Assembly (NCBI RefSeq): GCF_003855155.1
Contig: NZ_CP034073.1
Coordinates: forward strand, 4,464,001 to 4,528,000
DNA from: Shewanella psychromarinicola
Lineage (GTDB): Bacteria > Pseudomonadota > Gammaproteobacteria > Enterobacterales > Shewanellaceae
Direction: 5' to 3'
Length of the DNA stretch: 64,000 bases
The translations under genes were made by a program, and so were the position numbers. Of this stretch, positions 16,760-17,719 are shown in pieces. Within the stretch, counting starts at the first letter, position 1. Each line of letters starts with the position of its first letter. The notes under the pieces were generated by a model. That model was not told the DNA's origin and made no database searches. It saw nothing but the letters and a program-made list of their open reading frames with translations.

Positions 16760-16770
16760 TTAGAACTTAA
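16737..16770. repeat. Heptanucleotide tandem repeat (ACTTAGA)4 overlapping a stop codon
   Basis: Four full copies of ACTTAGA start at 16737, 16744, 16751 and 16758, followed by a partial copy to 16770. The stop codon of the phosphoribosyltransferase-HAD gene (TAA, 16762-16760) and its last codons lie inside the array. A 7-bp unit is not a multiple of three, so gain or loss of copies before the stop could alter the C-terminus. Confidence 0.85.
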
Positions 16771-17719
16771 ATGAATTATACAATGTACGTAGCACCTGTA
16801 TTTTTGAAAGTTTGTATCTAACTTTAGAAAATAAGTAACTTTTATTTTTAAACCGACTCAAACCTCCAGGGGATATCATAATATTCTCGTCCACACAAAA
16901 AACAAACTTATTAGAACGATTTGCAATTTCAATTGCTTGATTGATATCGCTCTCTACAAAAAGAGAAGAATCACTGTTTTTATAGAAATTAGCTTTATGC
17001 GAATAATAATCCGATTGAGCTAGTCGGTCTGCTTTTCCAGGCAAATCTAACATAATCAATTTATTAAATTTAACACCATTTTTAGATAACCAAACCTCTG
17101 TTTGTGTACGATACTTTTCTAATCTATTAGTTACTAGATAATCAATTTTCTCAGTAGGAATAAATCGTGGCTTTGCATTACATAAAAATTGCACATATTT
17201 ATCACCATCATCATTTTCTTCATTTGATGGGTCATAACAAAGTACACCATCAATATCAAAACACGAATTAGAAACTACTGGATGGTGATAAATATTCCAT
17301 TCAAAAACACGAGGTGGCTCAACCTCAGTAAGAACAATATCTACATTTTCATGGTTTTTATGGCTAGAATATACCGCGGCAGTAGTTATCAACCCTTGAA
17401 ATTTCGTTGGAATTTGTTTTAAAGAATTCAACATTGAATTTCCAGACAAAATACTATCATCAATAAGTAAAATATTTTTTGCATCATGTGAATTTACGAT
17501 GTCCGTCCCTACATCACGAGTTATACCCTTGCAAAGCTTTTCATTTCTAATAAATGCAGGTAGATCTATACAATTAACATTAAGTAGCAATGAAACCATA
17601 TAAGATGGAACCATTCCACTCCTTGGGATACCAACAATCAAATCAAAATTCTGAGTGTTGATCTTGTAAATATTATCACTAATATCTCTACTTAAATCAC
17701 TATATGATTTATATTTCAT
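16760..17719 (-). CDS. Phosphoribosyltransferase-HAD phosphatase fusion protein in a polysaccharide locus
   Basis: The 319-aa protein joins two domains. The first is a type I phosphoribosyltransferase with VGIPRSGMVPS (29-39) and the PRPP-binding loop LLIDDSILSGNSM (84-96, D87/D88). The second is a HAD-type hydrolase with FDIDGVLCYDP (D155, D157), LVTNR (T197), HKANFY (K242) and LFVESD (D258), covering the four HAD motifs. The start was set at 17719 because GAGGGA lies just before this ATG; an upstream in-frame TTG overlaps that site. A PRTase plus phosphatase beside glycosyltransferases fits a two-step ribofuranose transfer from PRPP, with later removal of the 5-phosphate. A nucleotide-salvage role is the alternative. 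The domains are clear; the role is inferred. Confidence 0.8.
   Translation of the reverse strand: MKYKSYSDLSRDISDNIYKINTQNFDLIVGIPRSGMVPSYMVSLLLNVNCIDLPAFIRNEKLCKGITRDVGTDIVNSHDAKNILLIDDSILSGNSMLNSLKQIPTKFQGLITTAAVYSSHKNHENVDIVLTEVEPPRVFEWNIYHHPVVSNSCFDIDGVLCYDPSNEENDDGDKYVQFLCNAKPRFIPTEKIDYLVTNRLEKYRTQTEVWLSKNGVKFNKLIMLDLPGKADRLAQSDYYSHKANFYKNSDSSLFVESDINQAIEIANRSNKFVFCVDENIMISPGGLSRFKNKSYLFSKVRYKLSKIQVLRTLYNSFKF

Follow-up and report, generated by a model that had tools for sequence, protein, structure and literature searches.

We report a gene in Shewanella psychromarinicola that probably encodes a ribofuranosyltransferase of a surface polysaccharide. The window, that is, the whole stretch of 64,000 nucleotides that was analysed (contig NZ_CP034073.1, positions 4,464,001 to 4,528,000), lies in a host genome that is a single contig of 5.13 Mb and carries on its reverse strand, at window positions 16760-17719, a gene for a protein of 319 amino acids. 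Our analysis confirmed that this protein is a phosphoribosyltransferase (PRT) domain joined to a HAD phosphatase and that its gene is a neighbour of ugd within a polysaccharide cluster of the Wzx/Wzy type. The fusion is predicted to depend on phosphoribosyl pyrophosphate (PRPP) and to work like the gPRT-PRP enzymes, which are built from other folds. We also think it rather probable that a type I phosphoribosyltransferase (PRTase) fold coupled to a capless Pnkp-type phosphatase represents a second, convergent class of PRPP-dependent ribofuranosyltransferases, and thus a new glycosyltransferase family that forms an O-glycosidic bond to a sugar and has spread horizontally together with a matching Wzx.

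Domain order, PRPP and HAD motifs, missing purine-contact residues and a basic tail can be read directly in the sequence of the fusion. Residues 1-142 make up the type I PRT domain, residues 143-284 the HAD phosphatase domain and residues 285-319 the basic C-terminal tail. The gene begins with an ATG at 17719 and ends with a stop codon at 16760-16762; an in-frame TTG six codons before this ATG is a less likely start, as M1 is near-invariant in 30 relatives. PF00156 was the sole Pfam model over its cut-off (27.8 bits versus 26.3), and no NCBIfam model exceeded its own. As no Pfam HAD model reached its cut-off either, assignment of the HAD half is based on motifs and predicted fold. The preliminary description had claimed an intact PRPP loop and all four HAD motifs on one chain, encoded inside a glycosyltransferase cluster right after ugd, and both claims hold. 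The vicinal pair D87-D88 of the PRPP loop and the R33-S34-G35 loop are present and conserved among relatives, the HAD motif residues D155/D157, T197, K242 and E256-S257-D258 are present, ugd lies 177 bp upstream on the same strand, and glycosyltransferase genes are found downstream. The fusion gene has its stop codon inside a tandem repeat with a 7-bp unit (TAGAACT, 5.3 copies, window positions 16733-16769), and slippage in the copy number of this repeat could change the end of the basic tail.

Residue conservation was counted across 199 unique members, obtained from 121 proteins and 82 open reading frames (ORFs) of loci by merging identical sequences; these are the closest relatives and not an even sample. 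R33, S34, G35 and D88 were the same in all 198 members with letters at these positions, and D87 in 197. In the HAD half, D155, K242 and R199 were found in every member, D157 in 198 and T197 in 197. In a Psychrobacter submarinus copy (L013:10001-10987), Glu stands where HAD motif I has its second Asp, and one case of this kind is counted among the 199. The fusion has the fold, PRPP loop and pyrophosphate loop of the type I PRTase superfamily (PF00156), with folds being taken from prediction tools. Its PRT half is predicted to be purine-PRT-like, and purine PRTases (4z1o, 7kl6 and E. coli XGPRT) come closest to it in both fold and sequence. For the HAD half, which carries four motifs on a predicted Pnkp 3'-phosphatase-type fold, the closest structures are the polynucleotide 3'-phosphatases of T4 (5uj0) and Clostridium (4xrp), enzymes that act on the ribose phosphate at a polymer end. 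Sequence similarity to the Pnkp type is weak (E 0.013 and 0.037), as is a match to HAD_SAK_2 in 6 of the 39 loci compared below (E up to 1, best 0.0033). The distance from the motif I Asp to the motif II Thr is 42 residues in 199/199 members and therefore leaves no room for a cap domain. The predicted model shows a PRT-HAD architecture and no helical membrane bundle. After residue 284, all 198 members with a tail of at least 15 residues have a net tail charge of at least +3 (median +9), compared with a median of −2 for the protein without its tail.

The genomic setting, known from genome comparisons, supports a glycan role for the fusion. The ORFs of all loci, in which gene calling was rough, were searched with HMMER in iterations that started from twelve seed families. 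Of 86 loci, four without a called target (L060, L062, L084 and L086) were left out and the remaining 82 were reduced to 39, with targets less than 75% identical; the 80 loci kept from genome contigs are closest relatives rather than an even sample. Neighbourhoods spanned about 10 kb (12 kb in two E. coli loci). A glycosyltransferase was encoded near the fusion in 29 of the 39 loci, and at least two in 27; Wzx was found nearby in 24 loci, within 1.3 kb in 18, and either protein in 31. Three of the 39 loci (the window and two from E. coli) had supplied the seeds, and without them the counts were 26/36 for glycosyltransferase, 21/36 for Wzx and 28/36 for either. As controls, both drawn from one genome, we searched 20-kb stretches of the fusion's own genome, 20 of them at even spacing and seven placed around the other PF00156 genes. 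Neither set contained a glycosyltransferase or Wzx (0/20 and 0/7), and three of the evenly spaced stretches had a match to a Wzc or Rml profile. In an even sample of the phylum, all nine other genomes with the fusion encoded a glycosyltransferase nearby and eight of them Wzx, with seven of the nine belonging to one family and the sample sets overlapping (L128/L129 with L014/L012; L120-L122 with L047, L079 and L074). Polysacc_synt_3 was the commonest Pfam family (17) among 134 scanned near neighbours, from a tally that left out 15 short or long ORFs of 149 and listed the 25 commonest of 90 families. The polysaccharide context noted in the preliminary description holds up.

In E. coli, a distant blastn search, by which diverged copies can be missed, detected the fusion in 13 of 5426 genomes. 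All 13 matches lie in O-antigen clusters beside a flippase gene, 11 of O105 type and two of O183 type. Strain d1-58 accounts for two of the 11 matches (L132, L138) and was typed by neighbour genes because its flippase gene carries a frameshift and no name; its annotated fusion gene is extended. Compared with the window protein over about 290 residues, the O105 protein shows 49% and the O183 protein 51% identity. When one O105 and one O183 cluster were compared from galF to gnd by blastn, flanking genes were shared and, within the clusters, no genes aligned other than the fusion and wzx (L091:11596-14048 and L092:11935-14364), a comparison at the DNA level that does not reach distant protein kinship of other genes. 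Fusion and wzx are 68% and 66% identical in DNA, and 57% and 58% in protein, respectively. The two genes therefore seem to be transferred together between O-units that are otherwise unrelated, as would be expected if the flippase and the enzyme that adds the residue were selected jointly. A further exchange was seen between O183 and O169. The O183 cluster was compared with two O169 clusters, taken from 11 further genomes carrying that wzy. Identity is 97% from the colanic acid genes until shortly before cpsG ends. Beyond this point, O169 is without the fusion and its wzx; in their place are insertion-sequence genes, a different wzx and a gene for a glycosyltransferase, with gnd following these replacement genes in strain NCTC11476. 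A simple interpretation is that an O-unit residue is added by the fusion before flipping and that another residue, with its flippase, replaced it. Pfam identifies all four other transferases in the O105 cluster, and likewise in the O183 cluster, as glycosyltransferases; what is left of each cluster is annotated as sugar-precursor genes, wzx and wzy, and annotation indicates no other PRPP enzyme in either cluster.

As the nearest relatives of the PRT half act on purines, we asked what became of the residues that contact the base. The 6-oxopurine PRTases act on their base through a general-base Asp, a contact Lys and a stacking Trp. In an alignment of hidden Markov models with the enzymes of Sulfolobus (GPT-2, 4z1o) and Helicobacter (XGHPRT, 7kl6), these correspond to positions 91, 119 and 136 of the fusion; two further alignments of the same comparison stop short of positions 119 and 136. 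Asp occurs at position 91 in 5/198 members and Lys at position 119 in 0/199, and position 136 is Pro in 199/199. At position 120, Lys is present in 40 and Arg in 29 of the 199 members, and a shifted basic residue is possible in some of them. At the aligned positions, the base-recognition residues of purine PRTases thus appear to be lost in the fusion family.

This loss, together with the restriction of the 13 E. coli matches to two O-antigen types, argues against the alternative that a base or base-like small molecule is phosphoribosylated and then dephosphorylated to give a nucleoside-like product, used as decoration or signal. Such a substrate would suit the kinship to purine PRTases and the retained hood residues F139 and W141, which, like P136, are found in 199/199 members. 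It would also suit the orphan copies at some loci, a weak match to one PADLOC model (E 0.0019) and a weak match (18.5 bits versus a cut-off of 27) to PRTase-CE, a family linked to conflict systems. Overall, we regard a base substrate as unlikely. A phage or defence gene was also considered and rejected, with no match to the fusion in the phage records searched and only weak PHROG and PADLOC matches.

Under the favoured model of ribofuranose transfer, the PRT domain would move 5-phosphoribose from PRPP, the presumed donor, onto a hydroxyl of a lipid-linked repeat unit, and the capless HAD domain would then take off the 5-phosphate. The acceptor sugar would be part of the undecaprenyl-linked unit on the inner face of the membrane, where the basic tail may dock. 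A beta linkage is predicted because type I PRTases invert alpha-PRPP; the identity of the added sugar as ribofuranose is likewise a prediction. As the fusion gene travels with wzx, ribose would presumably be added before flipping. The polymer of the window strain would then contain beta-D-ribofuranose besides the sugars from three glycosyltransferases and the initiating enzyme.

The basic tail, which suggests membrane contact, and the flippase family as the commonest among scanned neighbours would also be consistent with charging of undecaprenyl phosphate with ribose, which would supply a transferase acting later in the periplasm with a lipid-linked donor, as happens in three-component alpha-pentofuranose systems. 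However, the known enzymes for the ribose-lipid step are UbiA-type membrane proteins according to passages of PMC11127046, and the scanned window genes and E. coli transferases, which cover part of the cluster genes, gave no match to a GT-C family, so that we consider this route improbable. Equally improbable, in our judgement, is that PRPP is used on the glycan but a partner enzyme changes the residue into another pentofuranose or leaves a retained substituent: epimerases converting ribofuranose to xylofuranose or arabinofuranose exist in other systems, as described in part of PMC11127046, but no epimerase was present among the 25 commonest families of the scanned neighbours. A regulator that binds PRPP or nucleotides rather than an enzyme is very improbable, as both catalytic residue sets are near-invariant in the 199 proteins.

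Several observations weigh against ribofuranose transfer by the fusion. Passages of PMC11127046 credit all beta-ribofuranose (beta-Ribf) residues found to the enzymes of a 2022 paper. Excerpts of PMC10609480 and PMC9912281 describe beta-Ribf in E. coli O114 and O5ac, and none of the 13 E. coli matches is of O114 or O5ac type; the fusion is therefore at most one of several beta-Ribf routes. Moreover, none of the twelve seed families was found in seven of the 39 loci (L010, L016, L018, L019, L034, L042 and L063). One of these, L016, is a 5-kb contig, and around the other six orphan copies the genes look unrelated, as judged by eye from their first 45 residues. These seven loci speak against a polysaccharide role as a strict requirement. 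The preliminary description had named broad occurrence outside polysaccharide loci as a sign against its proposal, and this was encountered in part. At L019, the orphan copy lies near a gene that by eye resembles that for ribosomal protein S1. Elsewhere, beta-Ribf is described in the capsule of Psychrobacter marincola (in part of PMC7281560), and the lipopolysaccharide of Liberibacter crescens is rich in it (in part of PMC8537588). The P. marincola capsule was set aside as a test of the ribose link, as the P. submarinus cluster (L013) is by eye unlike that structure.

The fusion gene is patchily distributed, often among distantly related bacteria. It is more than a chance arrangement: a protein search gave 2906 matches at E≤1e-3; the best 120 were nearly all similar in length, and the closest named relatives among them were from Shewanella. 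In genome contigs, 451 encoding stretches were found, and the best 80 came, by record titles, from Pseudomonadota, Bacillota, Bacteroidota and one archaeal bin. Counting the host genome itself, the fusion is present in 2/394 genomes of the order and in 10/398 genomes of the even phylum sample. Samples around other centres, each centre counted, gave 2/105 Psychrobacter genomes and 2/299 genomes of the phylum of Paenibacillus, where the second copy has an internal stop. Among plasmid records with the fusion (41), 33 were from Rhizobium or Sinorhizobium. Within the literature searched, judged by titles and some passages, we did not recognise the family as described.

In the window, all genes of the surrounding cluster listed here are encoded on the reverse strand, like the fusion. 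The next gene upstream is ugd, for UDP-glucose 6-dehydrogenase (17897-19138), which matches TIGR03026 over its cut-off and PRK15057 with 692.6 bits, under the cut-off of 757 of that equivalog. Downstream, the next gene encodes a Wzx-type MOP flippase (14526-15845; Pfam and NCBIfam profile matches) that shares 27% identity with the O183 flippase over 380 residues. It is followed by genes for an acyltransferase of family 3 (13283-14224; PF01757, 111 bits), a family 2 glycosyltransferase (12293-13261; PF00535, 55.8 bits), an EpsG-family protein that is probably a Wzy-type polymerase (11054-12292; PF14897, 56.1 bits), a probable glycosyltransferase with a weak family 2 match (10263-11057; PF00535, 14 bits, below cut-off) and a WecG/TagA/CpsF-family glycosyltransferase (9525-10262; PF03808, 114.2 bits). 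The cluster thus has three glycosyltransferases, one of them a weak match. Further genes encode a ManC-type mannose-1-phosphate guanylyltransferase (7629-9062; Pfam) and, from translations read by eye, a phosphomannomutase-like protein (6200-7636), a WcaJ-like initiating phosphoglycosyltransferase (4786-6195) and Wza-like (2725-3261) and Wzc-like (458-2725) export proteins, the last three of which served as seeds. GC content is 30.5% in the fusion gene, 32.4% across 6200-19138 and 40.4% in the whole window. Most other cluster genes are closely packed, and the 914-bp gap between wzx and the fusion (window positions 15846-16759), with no ORF longer than 76 amino acids, is perhaps the remains of a lost gene. 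Elsewhere in the window (24038-30511), translations read by eye indicate a gene like those for sulphur amino acid lyases dependent on pyridoxal phosphate and four oleABCD-type genes (long-chain olefin).

If the proposed function is correct, hundreds of loci annotated as 'phosphoribosyltransferase' or 'hypothetical protein' would gain a role, and each such polysaccharide would hold one sugar beyond its glycosyltransferase count. Ribofuranose addition would have at least two separate origins in unrelated folds, and a nucleotide-salvage fold would be able to make sugar-sugar bonds. The O183/O169 exchange makes the idea testable in known serogroups. The ribofuranose transfer proposed in the preliminary description is partly supported: the reading as PRTase and phosphatase and the polysaccharide context hold up, and the locus association, the O-antigen swaps and the loss of base residues add support. 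Membership in the known PRPP-dependent ribofuranosyltransferase family is not supported. Like the fusion, the gPRT-PRP ribofuranosyltransferases (Klebsiella O4/O7 and CriT-CrpP of Bcs3 from Haemophilus influenzae type b) carry a PRPP transferase and a HAD phosphatase on one chain, are encoded in polysaccharide loci and follow the two-step logic that is predicted for the fusion. However, passages of PMC10299916 describe an acidic pair that CriT splits over two loops (D680/E818) and a helical cap in CrpP (residues 393-490), a cap that all previously identified PRP domains have according to part of PMC11127046. In contrast, the fusion has the canonical vicinal Asp pair (D87-D88) of type I PRTases and a phosphatase without a helical cap. 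As cap and split acidic pair are both absent, the fusion falls outside the gPRT-PRP family; fold searches listed no gPRT or PRP structure among their matches, an absence that in itself proves nothing. With the three-component pentofuranose systems (Citrobacter youngae O1 ORF12-15), the fusion shares a HAD phosphatase domain and would share PRPP as the ribose source. Their transferase is a UbiA-type membrane protein that makes a lipid-linked donor, as stated in part of PMC11127046, whereas the fusion, by its predicted model, is not an integral membrane transferase like the UbiA-type polyprenyl-phosphoribose synthases. From the purine-branch type I PRTases, including the two structures and E. 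coli XGPRT named above, it differs by the replaced base-contact Asp, Lys and Trp, the fused phosphatase, the basic tail and the polysaccharide setting, and the nearest folds of its HAD half are those of Pnkp-type 3'-phosphatases, T4 Pnkp and Clostridium Pnkp1.
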